NCBI GenBank assembly: GCA_013360195.1
Contig: JABWCQ010000018.1
Coordinates: 1-45,686 of the forward strand
DNA from: a bacterium
GTDB taxonomy: Bacteria; Electryoneota; RPQS01
Length of the DNA stretch: 45,686 bases
Direction of reading: 5' to 3'
In this document: piece after piece, positions 1-38,055 of the stretch
Layout: the number at the start of each line of letters is the position of its first letter
Position numbering within the stretch: position 1 is the stretch's first letter
The notes under the pieces: model-generated
The model's input: the letters and a program-made list of their open reading frames with translations, nothing else
Databases searched by the model: none
Told to the model about the DNA's origin: nothing
Position numbers and translations under genes: made by a program

Positions 1-1527
1 GACTTGACGGCCGAGCACGTCGTATATTTCCAATGTCACATCTTGCTCGCGGATGAGCGCGTACTCGATGGTGACGGTGGAGTTGAAGGGGTTGGGGTAG
101 GGATAACCAAGAGCAAATGTTGTTGGACGCGGCCCTTCGGCGCTTGATGGTGTGAAGAGAGAATCTGCTGACCAAGGGGTGACCGATACGAGATTGTGCA
201 CGCTGTCACCTTGCCCAAACGGGTTTTCAATATGGTGCAACGGTCCGGTGGAATCACCCCAATAACAATTTAATACGTAGCTTGGCGGGGAGCTTGCGAT
301 TCCATGATGTACAGCGTAGCCATCGGAGTTGATAAACATGTTTCGCTCCACAGCTCCGGGGGCAACGTCAATAATCATCGTCGCACCGCCGGGGGGATTT
401 GCAAAGCCATCGGCTGCGTTACCAAAGATATAATTGTCCTTGAAGGATAAGTTTGTCGGGCCTGTCTCACCCAGCAAGGCCACGGAATTTTCGTGCGCCT
501 CATTATTGTAGAAAAGATTATGCGATATCTCACAGATTTGAGTGTTTCCAAAGAATGTGAAAAGCATCCTGCTTATCCAGCGATCATCGCTGAGTCGACG
601 ATTTTCGGCAAAAGTGTTGTAGCGAAATCGTGCGACTGATCCAGTGTCAGCCCCACCAGACTCAAAAAGATCGTGTTGAAATTCGTTGTTTGTTACCGTG
701 TTTGAATCAAAGCGGATGTTCGAAGGCTGAAGATTGCCTTCGCCAGGAAGCCGGAAGAAGTGGTGAAAACGGTTGCTTGAAATTGTACAACCAGTAATCA
801 CAAGTGAATCTGCAATGCCAGTTTGCCGGATACCAATTGCTCCCGGTGAAGTGTTCCAGCCAGTACCAGAAAGGAGTGAGTTGCTTAAGCGCAGCGAACC
901 TCTTGCAATGAACAATGTGTTCTGGTCTGCATCAGTACTTGTTGAGAAACAGTTTAGAAACCTTGTGGAGTCGATGAAAGACGTGCAATCTGTGAGATGA
1001 CATGCCATACCATTTGAAAAAGAGCCGACCCGCTGAAACAAGCAATTTTCAATCCGAACCGTACTATTCACAGAAAGAACTGCACCGCCTGTAGTAGCGT
1101 AACATGAATCAAACTTACAGAACAACAGTGACAAATCCCGATCCTGAATTTCGAGACCTCCGCCACGAATCGATCCTTGCGAGAAAGTGCCTTCAACAGT
1201 GATGCCGATTAGAACTAAACTTGAGACAACTTCAACTTCTCTAGCGTAGAGACAACGATCAAACCAATCGGATGGTCTGATTACGCACGAATCAATCTCT
1301 GTACTATCATTAGTAATTATGTAACTGCCTGCAATTGTCAAGTCGTGATCTGGTGCTTCCAGTGTCAGCGTATAGATTCCGTTTTGAATAAGCACTGTAT
1401 CGCCTGAGCTTGACGAATCTATGGCGACCTGTATATTGGGGTACTCAGCCGGAACATTAAGAACTGACCCGAGCGAGATTGCAGCACTGAGGAGTAGACC
1501 AGCTGACAGTTGCAATGAACATCTCAT
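1..1527 (-). CDS. secreted beta-helix protein with T9SS sorting tail (C-terminus cut by window edge)
   Basis: Reading from the ATG at 1527, 509 codons stay open to base 1, so the stop lies outside the window. A purine-rich GGAAGGGGA ribosome site precedes the ATG and an N-terminal hydrophobic signal peptide follows it. The body has short Asn/Gly-rich turns, 'SGDTVL' then 'LTIAGSY', and repeated 'N.F..N' type rungs, as in right-handed parallel beta-helix (pectate-lyase-like) proteins. Near the end 'NPFGQGD' and then 'YPYPNPFNS' with 'LEIYDVLGRQV' mark the start of a T9SS type A sorting domain. It lies 16 bases after the small Cys-rich gene at 1544-1957 and is probably cotranscribed with it. 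It is clearly paralogous to the protein at 34440-36077, sharing the SGDT opening and the WG..GP.H..NPFGQGD block. Substrate or adhesive role is unknown. By eye the region is AT-richer than polA. Confidence 0.88.
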   Translation of the reverse strand, partial: MRCSLQLSAGLLLSAAISLGSVLNVPAEYPNIQVAIDSSSSGDTVLIQNGIYTLTLEAPDHDLTIAGSYIITNDSTEIDSCVIRPSDWFDRCLYAREVEVVSSLVLIGITVEGTFSQGSIRGGGLEIQDRDLSLLFCKFDSCYATTGGAVLSVNSTVRIENCLFQRVGSFSNGMACHLTDCTSFIDSTRFLNCFSTSTDADQNTLFIARGSLRLSNSLLSGTGWNTSPGAIGIRQTGIADSLVITGCTISSNRFHHFFRLPGEGNLQPSNIRFDSNTVTNNEFQHDLFESGGADTGSVARFRYNTFAENRRLSDDRWISRMLFTFFGNTQICEISHNLFYNNEAHENSVALLGETGPTNLSFKDNYIFGNAADGFANPPGGATMIIDVAPGAVERNMFINSDGYAVHHGIASSPPSYVLNCYWGDSTGPLHHIENPFGQGDSVHNLVSVTPWSADSLFTPSSAEGPRPTTFALGYPYPNPFNSTVTIEYALIREQDVTLEIYDVLGRQV

Positions 1528-1543
1528 GCGATTCCCCTTCCAC

Positions 1544-1957
1544 TTAATTTTTCTCGCAGTTACCGTGACATCCGTTGGTTGAGGGCGTATAGACATCAAC
1601 GCTTGCAGAACCAGCGTCGCAAGTCCCGTTACAGTCTTTGCATTGAACTGAGATACTGATGAGATGCTGCCCGGACGTTGGATAAGATACGCTTGTTGAC
1701 CCGCAACCGCACAAATTCAGAATTTGCCAAACTTGCACTCCATCGAGATAGGCAACAACATTAATTTTGTTGTTTGGGCTACCTGTGTCATAGAAAATGT
1801 ACCAGTTTGTGAAACTATCCGTCGAGTTAAGTTGATGTGAACCAATTGAGGCATTAATATCGCAGCACTGATCATTAACAGCAATGCAAAATGATGTTTG
1901 TGCGAAGGAGCAGTTCAAGGCAAAGAACACAACCGTGAACAAGAGGGCGATTTTCAT
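1544..1957 (-). CDS. small secreted cysteine-rich protein of unknown function
   Basis: The ATG at 1957 is preferred over an upstream in-frame start because GAGGT sits about six bases before it and the protein then opens with a clean signal peptide (MKIALLFTVVFFALNC..FAQ). The mature part (about 117 residues) carries ten cysteines, many in close pairs (QCC, CGC, CKDC, C.GNC near the end), suggesting several disulfides in an exported fold. No family was recognised. It lies directly upstream of the beta-helix T9SS protein, and the same order (small Cys-containing exported protein, then beta-helix T9SS cargo) recurs at 36548-34440. This suggests a functional pair, for example a carrier or binding partner, but that is inference. 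Confidence 0.75.
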   Translation of the reverse strand: MKIALLFTVVFFALNCSFAQTSFCIAVNDQCCDINASIGSHQLNSTDSFTNWYIFYDTGSPNNKINVVAYLDGVQVWQILNLCGCGSTSVSYPTSGQHLISISVQCKDCNGTCDAGSASVDVYTPSTNGCHGNCEKN

Positions 1958-2066
1958 AACAACCTCACATGCAAAAGACAAATAATTCCGCCGCACTTAC
2001 CTGCGGGGTAGGGTTGCTATAAGTAATTCAAAAAAGACCTGGGAATGTCAAGCGGACATTCCGTTG

Positions 2067-2082
2067 TGTGACAAAAATCACA
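2067..2082. promoter_or_regulatory. CRP/FNR-family-like palindromic operator
   Basis: A perfect TGTGA-N6-TCACA palindrome, the consensus architecture of CRP sites. It lies about 110 bases upstream of the minus-strand start at 1957. A TTGACA hexamer reads on the minus strand at 2051-2046 and a TATAGC at 2021-2016, but their spacing (24) does not make a standard promoter. Binding by a CRP/FNR-type regulator is inference; no such regulator is in the window. Confidence 0.4.
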
Positions 2083-2133
2083 GATGTAGCGAGAGAACAA
2101 CGAAGAATAGCTGACGGTAAGCAATTGAGAATG

Positions 2134-2790
2134 CTATCCTTTGGTCTTCAATCTCTTCGGCCATAGGAATAGTTTAGGTTCGATCTCGACGCGCACGTTG
2201 CGATGATAGAATGCAGCAAGTCGTTCGACTTCGGTGGCGACTTGGCCGTTGGCTGTGAGAATTTCCGAGACGCATTCAAGTGGCAAGCTCCCCTTTACAA
2301 GGGCTTCAGCTTGCGGATGTGTGGGCTCGTTCTTTTGTAAGTCTGTGCGAGTCCAATTGTCAACTTTTTCTGCAAACATGGATTGCAAACCTGCAAATCC
2401 TGCCTGTACGCGTGCGCCATAATCTTGCGCGGCGGAGACGGAACAGAACAGTGTGTCAGGATGCTCCAGGAGTTTCGTGTCCAACAGAAGATGCACCCAC
2501 TCCGATTGCCAGGCGGATTTCGAGCGCGCGTAAAGCAGCTCAAAGTTGGGAGTGGTTATTGAACAATTGATGTAATCGAGTCCGACGGCGAAATTCTCCA
2601 ACCTTCGCGGGTCATGCAGCAATCGCTCGGCTTTGGCACCGAATCTTGTTCGCAACCCGCGCGCCGTGTCAATGAAACCGTCTTCAAGAATTTGCGGGAG
2701 GTTGATGGTAAGATGCGTGCTGTGGAAGAGAAGCGTGATATCCCTGCGGCGAAGTTCGCGTGAAATAGTCTTTTTGGCGAACGGCCACAT
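2134..2790 (-). CDS. DarT-like (DUF4433) ADP-ribosyltransferase, apparently orphan
   Basis: A 218-residue protein is read from the ATG at 2790, which overlaps the stop of the upstream MFS gene as TGATG; the longer in-frame start at 2862 would lie inside that gene. Recognised features of the DarT family are an N-terminal H.TH..NLPQIL..G block (residues 23-38), a central 'SITTPNFELLYAR' stretch, an 'LFCSVSAA' strand near 114-121, and the 'HPQAEALV' block whose Glu162 matches the catalytic glutamate of the 'QAE.LV' motif. DarT enzymes use NAD to ADP-ribosylate thymidine in single-stranded DNA and are normally paired with the macrodomain antitoxin DarG. No macrodomain was seen in the flanking genes. 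The protein could be a divergent DarT, a domesticated enzyme, or a toxin whose antidote lies elsewhere. Family assignment is by motif memory and needs a profile search. Confidence 0.68.
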   Translation of the reverse strand: MWPFAKKTISRELRRRDITLLFHSTHLTINLPQILEDGFIDTARGLRTRFGAKAERLLHDPRRLENFAVGLDYINCSITTPNFELLYARSKSAWQSEWVHLLLDTKLLEHPDTLFCSVSAAQDYGARVQAGFAGLQSMFAEKVDNWTRTDLQKNEPTHPQAEALVKGSLPLECVSEILTANGQVATEVERLAAFYHRNVRVEIEPKLFLWPKRLKTKG

Positions 2791-4004
2791 CAGACGACCC
2801 GTAAACGATGATATCTGACAATCGTGTAGGTTGCGACAAGCATACAGACAATCGCCGCGCACATCAGCGACACGCGAGGTCCAAAGGAATGAGCGAGCAC
2901 ACCCAGCAGCACCGCTCCAAACGGACCAAAGCCGAGGAAGCTTGATGTGTAAACTCCGAGAACCCGGCCTCGCAGATGGTCGGGAGTCAACTGCTGCAGA
3001 AGGGTATTGGTGGAGGCAAGCATGGAGATTCCGGAGAAGCCCGCCATCGCCATTGCAATGACGGAGATTTCAAATTGCTCTGAAAGAGAAAAGATGAGCA
3101 AGCCCAAGCCAAGTCCGGCCATTCCCATCATGACCACCCAACCACGTTTACTGCCTTTCTCCATGGACGCTTGCCACAAGCCGCCGAGCAGCGCTCCGAC
3201 ACCCCCGGCCGACATGAGCACCCCGAGCCCCTCCGCCCCTGTTCCCAAGACGATATCGGCAAACATGGGAAGCAACGTCGTGTACGAGAATCCGAAAATC
3301 GTGAGAAAGATGACGTTGCGGATGAGAACGCGTTGAACGGGTGCCTTTTCTATATATATGTATGCATCGCGGAGCTGTTTGAGAACCGGTTCCCGCGGAT
3401 TGCCAGTCGGCGGAGGAAGATTGCGCATGAGTGACAATGTGACAATCAACGAAACATAAGAGAAAGCATTGACCAGAAAGCAGACTCCCTCACCAAACAA
3501 CGGAACAAGGATTCCGGCAATGGATGGTCCGACCAATCGCGCGCCGTTGAAGGTTGAGGAGTTCAGTGCGACCGCGTTTCCGATGTCCTCCTTGCCGACC
3601 AGATCGCCCACAAAGGCCAGGCGTGCAGGCGCATCAATAGCCATGAAGCTTCCGGAGATGGTGGCCAGAATGAGAACGTGCCACTCATTGACCAAGCCGG
3701 TGAAGGTAAGAATAGCGAGGAGGAATGCGGAGAGAGCAAGACCGGATTGTGTGATGTAAAGCACATAACGTTTAGGCGTTCGGTCCACCAAAACTCCGCC
3801 AATGGAGCCAAGCAGGAGGGATGGGAGCTGCGACATCGCACCGATGATGCCGAGCCAGAGAGCGGATTCGGTCAGTCTCCAAACAAGCCATCCTTGCGCA
3901 AGCGTTTGCATCCACGTACCGACAATAGAGAGCGCAAAGCCGCTCCAGAACAAACGGTAGTTGCGATGCCGGAATGCTTGAAAGGTTTGTTTAAGCGAGG
4001 TCAC
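2790..4004 (-). CDS. MFS transporter, MFS_3/EntS-type exporter
   Basis: A 404-residue, about 12-helix membrane protein. It opens with 'FRHRNYRLFWSGFALSIVG' and 'GTWMQTLAQGWLV', typical of the MFS_3 (PF05977, enterobactin exporter EntS-like) branch, with the loop 2-3 motif 'GGVLVDRTPKR'. Such proteins export small molecules or drugs by proton antiport in the inner membrane; the substrate here is unknown. The start overlaps the end of the upstream 553-residue gene by 14 bases, and the stop overlaps the ATG of the DarT-like gene. The three are therefore very likely one transcript with translational coupling. The last helix is followed by only a short basic tail. Confidence 0.9.
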   Translation of the reverse strand: MTSLKQTFQAFRHRNYRLFWSGFALSIVGTWMQTLAQGWLVWRLTESALWLGIIGAMSQLPSLLLGSIGGVLVDRTPKRYVLYITQSGLALSAFLLAILTFTGLVNEWHVLILATISGSFMAIDAPARLAFVGDLVGKEDIGNAVALNSSTFNGARLVGPSIAGILVPLFGEGVCFLVNAFSYVSLIVTLSLMRNLPPPTGNPREPVLKQLRDAYIYIEKAPVQRVLIRNVIFLTIFGFSYTTLLPMFADIVLGTGAEGLGVLMSAGGVGALLGGLWQASMEKGSKRGWVVMMGMAGLGLGLLIFSLSEQFEISVIAMAMAGFSGISMLASTNTLLQQLTPDHLRGRVLGVYTSSFLGFGPFGAVLLGVLAHSFGPRVSLMCAAIVCMLVATYTIVRYHRLRVV

Positions 4005-5652
4005 TATGTTTTAAGGAAAGTTCTGCCAGTTCGCCAAAGTAATCTTTGAGTGTCATGACTTCACTCAGGTAATTTGCTTCGTGTGCCGAACCTTTCCCGC
4101 GCGCCATGCGCAACCACGTGTGTTTCAAGTCATCCGGCCAAGTACGGCACTTGCCGTGCGCAAGCAGGAACAGTCCTTGCTGCGCGACGGAATGTCTTTC
4201 ATTCGCGGACATTTGCGGAATCGGGAAGCCGAGCAGAGCCTCTACCGCTTTAAGGATACGGGAGTCAATCTTTCTGTCGCGGGGGGCAATGCGAGTGAGC
4301 ACATCGGTTGCAAGGAGGCTTACGCGGTCGAGGGGGAATTCATGATAGTCCGCCGGGTCCTGTCCTTCAAGCGGCAAGACGACATCGGCTTCCGCAAGTT
4401 GTTTCAGAACGGATTTTGGCGAGCGATAACCTTTCTGCTTCAGAATCTTCTTGCGCTCTGACTCAGCAAGTCTGCGGATTTTCGCGTCGGTCGAACGGAA
4501 CCCGAGCTTGTAGTAGAACCAATAGGATCCCGAAGCCAAACCTTCTTCATTTTCATGTCCGACTTGATATTTGCGGGCGACACACCACGGCGCGTGATAG
4601 AAAGCGCGTGCGGCGCGAATGAGTTGAGCGTACACCCATGCGGCCTCTCCACCGCGAAACGTATCAAAAAGATTGACTGCAATTTCGAGGCGTGCAGGAT
4701 GAGCCCCTCCTCCGCCGTAGCTGATTGGGACACCGTTCTTTAGCAGCACGAAACCCAATCCTGTCTCTTGAGGCAGTCTCCACTCGGGCTTGGCAAACCA
4801 AAAGAGGAGGGTTGCGCCGCGATCCAATGGGATCTCGTAGAAGTCATCCGGATTGCCGTGCGTTGCACCGTAATACTCGCGCGAACGAATCAACAGAGTA
4901 CCGTGAACTATATTTAATAGATCTTGCGCGCGTTTGTGAGGACTTGGTGCGGGGAGCGTCAACGGCCGGAGAATTTCTTCAGCAAATTTGAATTTCGAAC
5001 GGTCCTCGCGCGGGTCCCATAAGAAAAGCGCGGCAGGTTTTTTGTCGGCAACGGTTGACCGGGAAGGTGCCTTTCCAACCAACTTGAAACGCAGAGTCAG
5101 ATTGGCATCGTTGTAAATCTGCGCGGCCGCGCGGGGCTCGAATGTGCGTTCAAAGCATTCGAGCAGCAGCGAAATGACCGTGCGGTTCCCCGCAGCGCGT
5201 TCGAGAATCTCGCGAACTGTCAGGTCTTCGCTGTCGGCAGCATCCGCTTCGCAATCTTCGAGCAGCAGCCAAAGAATGTCCACTAGCGGATCTTCGCGGG
5301 ACTCGTAATCCTCCCAATCCAGTTCGATGTCCTTGCCAAGCAAATCGGAAAGAACCCTTGCATTGCTGTAGTCGAAGGCATAGGAATACTCCGTGCCTGC
5401 AATTCCGGTTTGAGCCAAATCCTCTGATAATCCCATTTCTTCAATCCGTTCATGGAAGCGGCCAAGCTCGCGGTCGCAGAATTTGCGGATAGCTTCCGAT
5501 TGCGGATAGGCTTTGTAGAACAGTAATTGGTCGTGAAAGACTTCGATGGACTTGGGGGAATGAGCGGCAGCGGCAAGTTCGCGCAGCAGATTCAGCGTCT
5601 CGACGGCATCGGGCCGGGTTTGCAGCTTTTTTAAGAGGGAATTTACAGTCAT
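3991..5652 (-). CDS. large conserved protein of unknown function with possible GNAT-like region
   Basis: The ATG at 5652 has GGAG about seven bases upstream; 553 residues with no signal peptide, so cytoplasmic. The N-terminal half is Leu/Glu-rich and helical. The middle (about residues 245-400) contains 'GTLLIRSREYYGATHGN', 'FVLLKNGVPISYGGG', 'NLFDTFRGGEAAWVYAQLIRAAR' and 'GSYWFYYKLGFR'. The ending 'YYKLGFR' and the preceding beta-strand pattern resemble a GNAT acetyltransferase core, but no acetyl-CoA loop can be asserted. Similar proteins are remembered from Gemmatimonadota- and Acidobacteriota-type genomes without known function. It heads the operon with the MFS exporter and DarT-like enzyme. 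Function is not assigned. Confidence 0.8.
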   Translation of the reverse strand: MTVNSLLKKLQTRPDAVETLNLLRELAAAAHSPKSIEVFHDQLLFYKAYPQSEAIRKFCDRELGRFHERIEEMGLSEDLAQTGIAGTEYSYAFDYSNARVLSDLLGKDIELDWEDYESREDPLVDILWLLLEDCEADAADSEDLTVREILERAAGNRTVISLLLECFERTFEPRAAAQIYNDANLTLRFKLVGKAPSRSTVADKKPAALFLWDPREDRSKFKFAEEILRPLTLPAPSPHKRAQDLLNIVHGTLLIRSREYYGATHGNPDDFYEIPLDRGATLLFWFAKPEWRLPQETGLGFVLLKNGVPISYGGGGAHPARLEIAVNLFDTFRGGEAAWVYAQLIRAARAFYHAPWCVARKYQVGHENEEGLASGSYWFYYKLGFRSTDAKIRRLAESERKKILKQKGYRSPKSVLKQLAEADVVLPLEGQDPADYHEFPLDRVSLLATDVLTRIAPRDRKIDSRILKAVEALLGFPIPQMSANERHSVAQQGLFLLAHGKCRTWPDDLKHTWLRMARGKGSAHEANYLSEVMTLKDYFGELAELSLKHSDLA

Positions 5653-5734: not shown

Positions 5735-5770
5735 AAAAAAACAAACGGTCCAGGGGAACCAGACCGTTTG
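5735..5770 (-). terminator. rho-independent terminator of the histone-like gene
   Basis: The arms CAAACGGTC (5742-5750) and GACCGTTTG (5762-5770) form a perfect 9-bp stem. On the minus strand it is followed by seven U residues (A-run 5735-5741). It lies 26 bases after the stop of the Lys/Ala-rich gene and separates it from the operon starting at 5652. Confidence 0.85.
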
Positions 5771-5796
5771 CATATCGTTGCCAGTCAGAAAACCGA

Positions 5797-6090
5797 TTAC
5801 ATCGGCATCGGGGCGGCGGCTTTCTTCTTTGAGCGGCGAGCTTTCTTCTTGGTAGCTTTCTTCTTGGTCGCCTTCTTAGCCGTAGCTTTCTTCTTGGTGG
5901 CTTTCTTCTTGGTCGCTTTCTTCTTCGTAGCTTTCTTCTTGGTGGCCTTCTTTGCTACTTTCTTCTTCGCTACTTTCTTCTTGGCGGCCTTCTTCGCCGT
6001 AGCTTTCTTCTTGGTGGCTTTCTTCTTGGTCGCCTTCTTAGCCGTAGCTTTCTTCTTGGTGGCCTTCTTCTTGGCCTTCTTCACTGCCAT
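5797..6090 (-). CDS. histone H1-like Lys/Ala/Thr-repeat DNA-binding protein
   Basis: A 97-residue protein starting MAVKKAKKKATKKKAT and built almost entirely of KKAT/KKKA units, ending in RRSKKKAAAPMPM. The ATG at 6090 has GAAGGAGAAA just upstream; a longer in-frame extension to 6207 has no repeat character and is rejected. Such low-complexity basic proteins (bacterial H1-like, as in chlamydial Hc1/Hc2 and AlgR3-type C-terminal tails) bind DNA and contribute to nucleoid compaction. The DNA is itself internally repetitive (CTTCTTGGT-type units), so copy number may vary between strains. It has its own terminator and no operon partner. Opposite-strand reading gives only Phe/Leu/Val-rich low complexity. 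Confidence 0.8.
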   Translation of the reverse strand: MAVKKAKKKATKKKATAKKATKKKATKKKATAKKAAKKKVAKKKVAKKATKKKATKKKATKKKATKKKATAKKATKKKATKKKARRSKKKAAAPMPM

Positions 6091-6609
6091 GCGGATTTCT
6101 CCTTCGCTGATTATCGGGCAGAGACTCGTTCGAGAACAGGATGTTTTGTGTCCAGACAGGAAGCTACGACGCTGCCCGAGATTCGCGTGGCTTCCTTTAC
6201 TGTGCAACCCGAAGGACTCGTGCGGCGAGTCACTTAGGTTGTACCGGCGGCTTCTCGAAAGATGAGTCGCACAGTATCTATGATCACGTCCCGGATAAGG
6301 ACGTTCATCTCGTTCTGGGGGCGGGTCTCACAGCCACCGGAGTGGGCGACCCGCACTTAAGGATCGGCTGATCGAGGCTAATCTATAGCAACAAATGGGC
6401 CGATTTTCAGGAAAGTTAAGCAGATGGAACCAAATTTGGTCGTTCCATGTGCCGCATGAGCAGGAGCTAAGCTGTACTCACGATATTGTAAGATTCTGAA
6501 AAACAGTAAACTTACAATCAGAACTGCGCTTTCAATTCAAAGCGATTCAAGCGCAGAAAAAGAACGAAGAAAATTTAAGAAAGAAACGAATCGGAGCAGC
6601 GAATATCGG
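6091..6609. other. gene-free stretch of about 520 bases
   Basis: No convincing gene. It should hold the promoter of the histone-like gene (minus strand), but no clear -35/-10 pair was found. Visible structure: arms GCGGGTC/GACCCGC at 6321-6327 and 6348-6354; ATTGTAAG/CTTACAAT at 6485-6492 and 6511-6518; and CTGCGCTT/AAGCGCAG at 6524-6531 and 6549-6556. The last could act as a weak terminator for the minus-strand gene ending at 6610, but it lacks a strong U-tract. No tRNA fold was recognised. Confidence 0.4.
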
Positions 6610-36679: not shown

Positions 36680-37192
36680 TTACACTAACGTACTGCACTC
36701 ATGCTTCAAGAGCCATGCTTTTCGGTCTAAACCTCCGGCGTAGCCGGTGAGATGATTGTTTTGACCTAAGACTCTGTGGCAGGGAACGATGACGGCAATC
36801 GGGTTTTGACCGTTGGCAAGACCGATGGCGCGGGACGCGCTTGGATAAAATATGCGCTTGGCAATTTCACCATAGGTGGTGGTTGTGCCATATGGAATCA
36901 ATCGCAGCTCGCGCCAGACTTCGCGCTGAAATTCCGTGCCGCGTAAATCAAGCGGCACTTCAAAGTGCGTGCGATAGCCCGCGAAATACTCAGTGAGCTC
37001 CTTTCGTGCCTGCTGCAGGATCTTTGTTTCAATGCACTCACCTTCGGCATCTCTGGGATCGTCACAGAATTCCGCGCGCATCAATCCTGCCGAGGTCGCA
37101 GTCAAACGCATCCGGCCAACCGGAGTCTTCATGTCCGTCCAATAGAGATCCGCCGGAGCCGCAATTAGGGGTTGCTCAACAACGTGTACCAT
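36680..37192 (-). CDS. ogt: methylated-DNA-protein-cysteine methyltransferase
   Basis: 170 residues from the ATG at 37192, normal for Ogt; a TTG at 37228 with GGAG only two bases away is an alternative. The acceptor Cys138 lies in 'VIVPCHRVLG', with the helix-turn-helix region 'GTEFQREVWRELRLIPYGTTTTYGEIA' and 'GYAGGLDRKAWLLKHE' in the usual order. It transfers alkyl groups from O6-alkylguanine to itself. The start overlaps the end of alkA by 28 bases, so the two repair genes are an operon. Confidence 0.95.
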   Translation of the reverse strand: MVHVVEQPLIAAPADLYWTDMKTPVGRMRLTATSAGLMRAEFCDDPRDAEGECIETKILQQARKELTEYFAGYRTHFEVPLDLRGTEFQREVWRELRLIPYGTTTTYGEIAKRIFYPSASRAIGLANGQNPIAVIVPCHRVLGQNNHLTGYAGGLDRKAWLLKHECSTLV

Positions 37193-38055
37193 ATATAGAA
37201 TGTAGCGTAGCCGCGATAGGGCCGCCAACTCTCCGTTATTCGCTTGGTTTCCTCGATACTCGCCTGTCTGCCCAGCCCGTACTCTCTTGCAATCGCATTG
37301 CGTAACCCGATGTCTTCAAACGGACAGGCATCGGAATCGCCATGCACACGCATCATCGCATATTCCACCGACCACGGGCCGACACCGCGCAGCTGTATCA
37401 GTCGTCTCCGAATTCCTGCCGGGTCACTTTCCGTACGCAGCGACTCCCTAAGATAACCCAGCTGAAGCTCCAACGCAAGACCTTGAAGATACTCTCCCTT
37501 TTGTCTTGACAACCCGCACTCCCGCAGTTCATCCGGTGTCAAACTCAGCACTGCTTCAGAAGTTGGAAACCCCTCATAAATCTTATCTTGCCACTCCACC
37601 ACCGCGCCGCAATACAAGGCTAATCGTGAGCGCGTTGAGAACGCAGATGCTACAGAGACCTGCTGCCCGATGATGGACCACGACAAACACTCCCAGAGGC
37701 TGTGGATTCCGACGAGTCGCAATCCGCAATAGTCACGCGTCCACTTTTTCAAGTACTGATTAGTTTCCGCAAACTCGTAAAAGCGCAATAGTTCATTATC
37801 GCACCCAAATGTCCGCTGCAGGTAATGCCTGACTTGTGCTAATCGTGCGTCAGTTGCTCGGCCAACTTTGATCTCAGCTCTGACGGCGCTCTCACCGTGA
37901 GGCGTTACCTCGATGAGAAAGTAGCCGGCGTCATCGGCGAGCACTTGACAGAACTGCTCATCTGAAACCGCGTGTGTCTGCGCGTTTTCATAGCGGCCTA
38001 TGTACTTCGCCGTCCTGCTGAAACTGAACGGTGCGTTGAATGTGTGGATATGCAT
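37165..38055 (-). CDS. alkA: DNA-3-methyladenine glycosylase II-like (HhH-GPD)
   Basis: 296 residues. The helix-hairpin-helix 'LRGVGPWSVEYAMMR' and the catalytic Asp248 in 'CPFEDIGLRNAI' have the spacing of E. coli AlkA (Gly to Asp 24). 'IIGQQVSVASAFSTRSRL' and the C-terminal 'SWRPYRGYATFYIWY' are family hallmarks. It excises alkylated bases and works in the same damage class as the overlapping ogt gene. No ribosome site is obvious before the ATG. Confidence 0.92.
   Translation of the reverse strand: MHIHTFNAPFSFSRTAKYIGRYENAQTHAVSDEQFCQVLADDAGYFLIEVTPHGESAVRAEIKVGRATDARLAQVRHYLQRTFGCDNELLRFYEFAETNQYLKKWTRDYCGLRLVGIHSLWECLSWSIIGQQVSVASAFSTRSRLALYCGAVVEWQDKIYEGFPTSEAVLSLTPDELRECGLSRQKGEYLQGLALELQLGYLRESLRTESDPAGIRRRLIQLRGVGPWSVEYAMMRVHGDSDACPFEDIGLRNAIAREYGLGRQASIEETKRITESWRPYRGYATFYIWYTLLSNP

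Follow-up and report, generated by a model that had tools for sequence, protein, structure and literature searches.

P0001, a 218-aa protein, is predicted from its sequence and modelled structure to be an orphan DarT-fold ADP-ribosyltransferase of the DarT1 type. The best explanation, to which about even confidence is attached, is that this transferase has been domesticated: it would be fixed in the chromosome, act on a changed acceptor and work with an MFS exporter. The DarT enzymes so far described in the literature covered are nucleic-acid-modifying toxins held by a dedicated eraser; the pattern found in this family of uncultured bacteria suggests that what was once a toxin now serves as a resident enzyme acting on another target. 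If true, the explanation predicts a new acceptor for a DarT-type enzyme, and the combination of a kept catalytic core, a replaced base reader, no eraser alongside and strict coupling to a transporter would show a toxin becoming a resident enzyme.

Operon organization and partner genes

The window (the whole stretch of DNA analysed, 45,686 nucleotides) lies on contig 18 of the 3.23-Mb genome G000, which comprises 46 contigs. Comparisons were made within three taxonomic families of one phylum: f1 (the family of G000), its sister family f2, and f4. Three genes of the window are transcribed from the reverse strand. P0003 (553 aa; 3991-5652) is followed by P0002 (404 aa; 2790-4004), which has a GTG start and overlaps the preceding P0003 ORF by 14 bases, and then by P0001 (2134-2790), whose ATG start overlaps the stop codon of the MFS gene by a single base (TGATG). 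All three ORFs and both overlaps of the initial annotation were confirmed. On the same strand, an intrinsic-terminator-like site with a 13-bp stem and T tract (5741-5771) lies after the upstream Lys-rich gene and before P0003, and a second terminator-like site with an 8-bp stem and T-rich tail (2042-2062) lies downstream of P0001. Because these sites, the first of them strong, flank the trio, P0003-P0002-P0001 looks like a single transcription unit. Codon identity between the two species of the genus, given per position as formal dS is saturated between them, is 34-39% at third positions versus 72-91% at positions 1 and 2, and this large difference indicates purifying selection on all three genes.

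P0002 is a predicted EntS-like exporter. This protein matches PF05977 (MFS_3) over most of its length (221.5 bits, cut-off 27; E-value: 2.2e-65), and a PDB sequence search with it returned nothing. In each of the eight f1 loci, DarT follows the MFS gene. In six of these its start codon and the MFS stop codon share one base (TGATG), in one the two overlap by four bases (ATGA), and in one they are separated by an 85-base gap. As the overlap is repeated in 7/8 orthologous loci it is not due to chance, and the coupling to an exporter proposed from the single locus holds. In f2, an MFS gene occupies the same neighbourhood of polA and the Lys-rich protein gene without either DarT or P0003, which suggests that these two genes were added to a pre-existing MFS locus in the f1 ancestor. 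The MFS-DarT link is confined to f1; the orphan DarT genes of f4 are paired with a SIMPL protein.

P0003 has no match in Pfam, NCBIfam, PADLOC or PHROG, and none by PDB sequence search. Its model (pLDDT 88.7) has a central sheet-helix region, with a GNAT-like core at approximately residues 266-385 between helical domains. The Foldseek neighbours are nearly all GNAT acetyltransferases, with marginal E-values (0.03-0.3) and no sequence-profile match; the suggestion of a possible GNAT-like fold is compatible with this list. P0003 is contiguous with the MFS-DarT pair in four of the eight loci (G000, G001, G003 and G008), close by in a fifth (G002), and either detached or missing from the matches in three (G005, G007 and G010), and its homologues in f2 and other phyla have neither DarT nor MFS adjacent. 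It is an added, separable member of the operon; on these gene neighbourhoods, a role as a fixed third component was rejected. Of the trio first put forward as a possible system, the MFS-DarT pair is therefore constant in f1 and P0003 is not.

The overlapping operon and the GNAT-like core of P0003 had also raised the idea that the genes form a new toxin-immunity system, with the exporter or the large protein as the protective element. This now appears very improbable: P0003 is missing from the operon in 3/8 loci and occurs DarT-free in many phyla, and neither partner adjoins the f4 orphans. Protection by either protein finds no support, because P0003 is separable, the MFS gene occurs without DarT in f2, and the f4 partner is a SIMPL protein.

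Family, fold and active site of P0001

P0001 belongs to the DarT superfamily by its match to PF14487 (80 bits, gathering cut-off 22.5; E-value: 2.6e-22) and also matches the PADLOC DarT profile (51 bits). Its score against the NCBIfam equivalog toxin_DarT (NF048013) is 33.6 bits, below the cut-off of 150. When a profile of P0001 orthologues was compared with solved structures, E. coli C7 DarT1 (8baq) gave the sole meaningful score (E-value: 2.1e-14). The same structure is the best Foldseek match of the P0001 AlphaFold2 model (pLDDT 82; E-value: 7.1e-11, TM 0.75), ahead of DarT2. The profile and structure searches thus concur with the DarT assignment originally made for this protein. Phylogenetically, the orphans of f1 and f4 group together on the DarT1 side with moderate support only (89/85), and DarT2 forms a separate branch from them with strong support (100/97).

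Residue positions were taken from a profile alignment to DarT1, and their roles from the DarT1 crystal-structure paper (PMC11543638). In DarT1, H17 contacts the NAD+ ribose, R52, D54 and M71 are essential, and E152 is catalytic; N104 is the guanine-coordinating Asn, and Q150 and Y73 contact the DNA (PMC11543638). In P0001, the counterparts of H17 and T19 are H23 (codon 2722-2724, reverse strand, as are all that follow) and T25 (2716-2718), both invariant in the eight orthologues and in all DarT1-type rows. R63 (2602-2604), corresponding to R52, is invariant in f1, and E65 (2596-2598) stands in the alignment in place of D54. The ART-characteristic catalytic Glu is E162 (2305-2307; DarT1 E152), which is invariant and lies in the motif PTHPQAE. 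Overall, 14/17 active-site positions are invariant in f1 versus 50/201 elsewhere (p = 3.6e-6). Because H23, T25, R63 and E162 are invariant, P0001 very likely retains both NAD+ binding and ADP-ribose transfer.

The residues that read the base are different. DarT1 N104 is replaced by S119 (2434-2436), with Ser in 8/8 f1 orphans and Gly in both f4 orphans, whereas Asn occupies this position in 9/9 DarT1/helicase-linked rows and 3/4 DarT2 rows. Within the DarT1-type set, the replacement is confined to the antitoxin-less groups, and all examined partnered enzymes keep Asn. The guanine-coordinating Asn characteristic of DarTG1 is thus absent from P0001. The K74 position is variable, and Y75 corresponds to Arg89. 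From these replacements we infer that the acceptor is altered relative to DarT1 and is no longer ssDNA guanine. This reading is alignment-based, and loops 61-66 and 92-95 of the model have pLDDT values below 50.

P0001 resembles E. coli C7 DarT1 (8BAQ; the toxin of DarTG1/DarT-NADAR; PMC11543638) in fold, overall length, the H-x-T NAD+ site, the essential Arg and Glu, and an acidic residue (Glu) at D54. It differs in its base-reading positions, in the substitutions M71 to Leu (Leu85) and F18 to Ser, in its coupling to an MFS exporter, and in the lack of NADAR from both operon and genome. With DarT2 of DarTG2 (Thermus, M. tuberculosis) it shares the superfamily and the catalytic Arg/Glu, but it lies on a separate branch, has no DarG and has no Tyr at the [H-Y-E] position.

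M71, F18 and F72 are substituted in P0001 (the last two by Ser and Leu), and the enzyme may therefore have little or no activity. Together with the very close link between P0001 and a membrane protein, these changes would fit a catalytically dead derivative that acts in the transporter as its NAD+ sensor or as a binding subunit. With the catalytic Glu, the Arg and the H-x-T site invariant in 8/8 orthologues, this is the least likely of the explanations weighed.

The leading alternative is that P0001 is still a nucleic-acid ADP-ribosyltransferase, acting on DNA or RNA at another base or sequence for growth control, with the damage reversed by a macrodomain protein in trans or by general repair. 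The conservation of the DNA-contact positions Q150 and Y73 in f1 keeps a nucleic-acid acceptor possible, and the f1 orphan proteins are mildly basic (pI 7.8-9.8). In its favour, M. tuberculosis DarTG serves as a chromosomal regulator and is not a system of the defence-island kind (PMC12170906), and DarT lesions in E. coli are reported to be reversed by NER and RecF-mediated recombination (PMC7003065). Against it, the base-coordinating residue is gone from all of the orphans.

Absence of an adjacent eraser and distribution of the orphan

P0001 is the only DarT protein of the G000 genome. No DarG, NADAR or ADP-ribosylglycohydrolase gene lies beside it; the operon contains no macrodomain gene, in agreement with the absence of an adjacent DarG first noticed, and so lacks the hallmark of DarTG2. 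The NADAR partner of DarT1 (NADAR-DarT1, PF22397), which would mark a DarTG1 system, is absent from the operon and from the 11 f1, two f2 and two f4 genomes. PF08719 is absent from G000, and no ADP-ribosylglycohydrolase above the cut-off was found in the 13 f1 and f2 genomes. All f1 genomes are draft assemblies, and these absences are to be read accordingly.

A stand-alone macrodomain, intact or degenerate, is present in 8/8 f1 genomes with the orphan DarT, which is consistent with a nucleic-acid acceptor and an eraser in trans. Five of the eight (G003, G005, G007, G008 and G010) have an intact MacroD-type protein. The sole macrodomain protein of G000 is encoded on another contig, has 25% identity to an intact relative in G011, and no longer contains the NAAN and GAGV motifs of that relative; the usual motifs are likewise lost in G001 and G002. 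In f4, the two genomes that carry a related orphan (G014 and G019) have no macrodomain. With a single degenerate macrodomain and no NADAR found, a DarG or NADAR partner elsewhere in G000 was rejected. The degenerate motifs in three genomes, the lack of a macrodomain in f4 and the absence of NADAR-DarT1 throughout count against the nucleic-acid explanation, which is regarded as possible but unlikely.

The initial annotation had also considered that a darG homologue might accompany other copies of the gene. Such homologues do exist: canonical DarT2 genes in the relatives G005, G011, G018 and G037 adjoin a macrodomain gene. As G005 carries both a canonical DarTG pair and the orphan, the orphan is a separate lineage and not a DarTG system stripped of darG here.

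Orthologues of P0001 (50-65% identity) are found in 8/11 f1 genomes; the other three are MAGs that are 56, 80 and 91% complete. Among 386 genomes of wider kinship, the only matches are those in f4 (G014 and G019) and three weak or fragmentary ones. Two matches, a fragment with a stop in G385 and one inside gyrB in G124, were set aside as uninformative. The f4 orphans are paired with a SIMPL (DUF541) protein and score only approximately 97 bits against the f1 profile, but resemble the f1 orphans in having no macrodomain or NADAR-DarT1 found and in the loss of N104.

Relatives on plasmids (tblastn) have only 25-34% identity to P0001. Plasmid DarT1-type genes adjoin NADAR-DarT1 or ADP-ribosylglycohydrolase genes, and the closest relatives outside f1 (30-34% identity) sit in plasmid modules of a UvrD-like helicase, DarT and an ADP-ribosylglycohydrolase. 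These modules (plasmids L064-L066 and L069-L071; also G233) share the DarT1-type active site with P0001 but keep N104, carry the glycohydrolase and have no MFS gene at the corresponding position. An f4 orphan used as a plasmid query gave no match. P0001 has no phage match and no viral relative, and with plasmid relatives this distant a mobile or phage origin was rejected.

The plasmid modules bear on a further explanation, that P0001 is a phage-defence effector triggered by infection and hence needs no constitutive antitoxin. DarTG1 and DarTG2 do protect against phages (reviewed in PMC11543638). P0001, however, is linked to polA and the Lys-rich protein gene rather than to defence genes, is spread through one family rather than patchily, and is coupled to a transporter; a defence role is accordingly considered improbable.

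Proposed model for P0001

The proposed model for domestication of P0001 is as follows. A DarT1-type transferase would have become fixed in the lineage, co-translated with an exporter. It would have kept NAD+ binding and ADP-ribose transfer while its acceptor shifted away from ssDNA guanine, and the antitoxin would have become dispensable once the acceptor had changed. The cargo of the MFS exporter may be the enzyme's substrate or its ADP-ribosylated product; a small molecule is the most plausible candidate. A small-molecule acceptor handled by the exporter is the favoured conjecture, drawn from the MFS-DarT coupling, and the lack of a recognisable dedicated eraser would fit a non-toxic modification. 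Taken in full, that is, as a DarT-fold enzyme acting off nucleic acid on a small molecule, with a dedicated exporter and free of an antitoxin, the proposal is a tentative one, thought rather doubtful.

Domestication itself is favoured by the family, fold, orphan status, residue pattern, conserved coupling and purifying selection. Against it stand the retention of Q150 and Y73, the basic pI, the changes at M71, F18 and F72, the macrodomain in every orphan-bearing f1 genome, the restriction of the exporter link to one family, the dependence of the altered acceptor on an alignment, and the poorly modelled loops. A few queries of the open-access literature found no account of a DarT lineage that is coupled to an MFS gene or lacks an eraser; on present evidence, the MFS-coupled orphan is a variant inside the DarT family and not a novel type of system. 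The Arr-type rifamycin ADP-ribosyltransferases, which belong to a different ART family, act on a small molecule and offer a precedent, by analogy, for the favoured mechanism.

Other DarT genes and a macrodomain protein

UvrD-like helicase or '3'-5' exonuclease' genes are grouped with DarT and ADP-ribosylglycohydrolase genes in modules at loci L064, L065, L066, L069, L070, L071 and L058 (positions 3-3825). These modules look like a third type of DarT toxin-antidote system. They are carried by plasmids and one genome, and one of them (L069) is bordered by a BREX pglZ gene. DarT proteins of a second antitoxin-less kind are encoded in two genomes from another family of the same phylum (L061:2135-3596 and L037:7701-9173), where the DarT gene is adjoined or overlapped by a SIMPL (DUF541) gene.

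Contig 7 of the window's own genome encodes a macrodomain protein with degenerate ADP-ribose motifs (L063:4722-5267, minus strand). The neighbouring genes encode a HIT-type hydrolase and succinate dehydrogenase, and an intact relative of the protein is carried by genome G011.

P0003 and the gene at polA

The family of the 553-residue protein P0003 (window 3991-5652; loci L105-L115), which has a predicted GNAT-like core, is widespread and unnamed: it is present in 11 families outside the phylum and has no entry in Pfam. The minus-strand gene at 5797-6207, which adjoins polA, encodes a Lys/Ala-rich, histone H1-like protein with AKKATKK repeats. Its match to HC2 is weak and falls under the cut-off. 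A similar gene is found in the vicinity of polA in the f1 and f2 relatives.

DNA repair genes

In G014 (L116:6063-7835), the MFS relative of P0002 is followed by a 3-methyladenine DNA glycosylase (Tag) gene, which starts directly after the MFS stop codon. Paired genes for an AlkA-like glycosylase and an O6-methylguanine methyltransferase (window 36680-38055; L025:3391-4796; L032:6420-7825) lie no more than a few kb from the MFS-DarT gene pair in G001 and G005, but 34 kb from it in the window.
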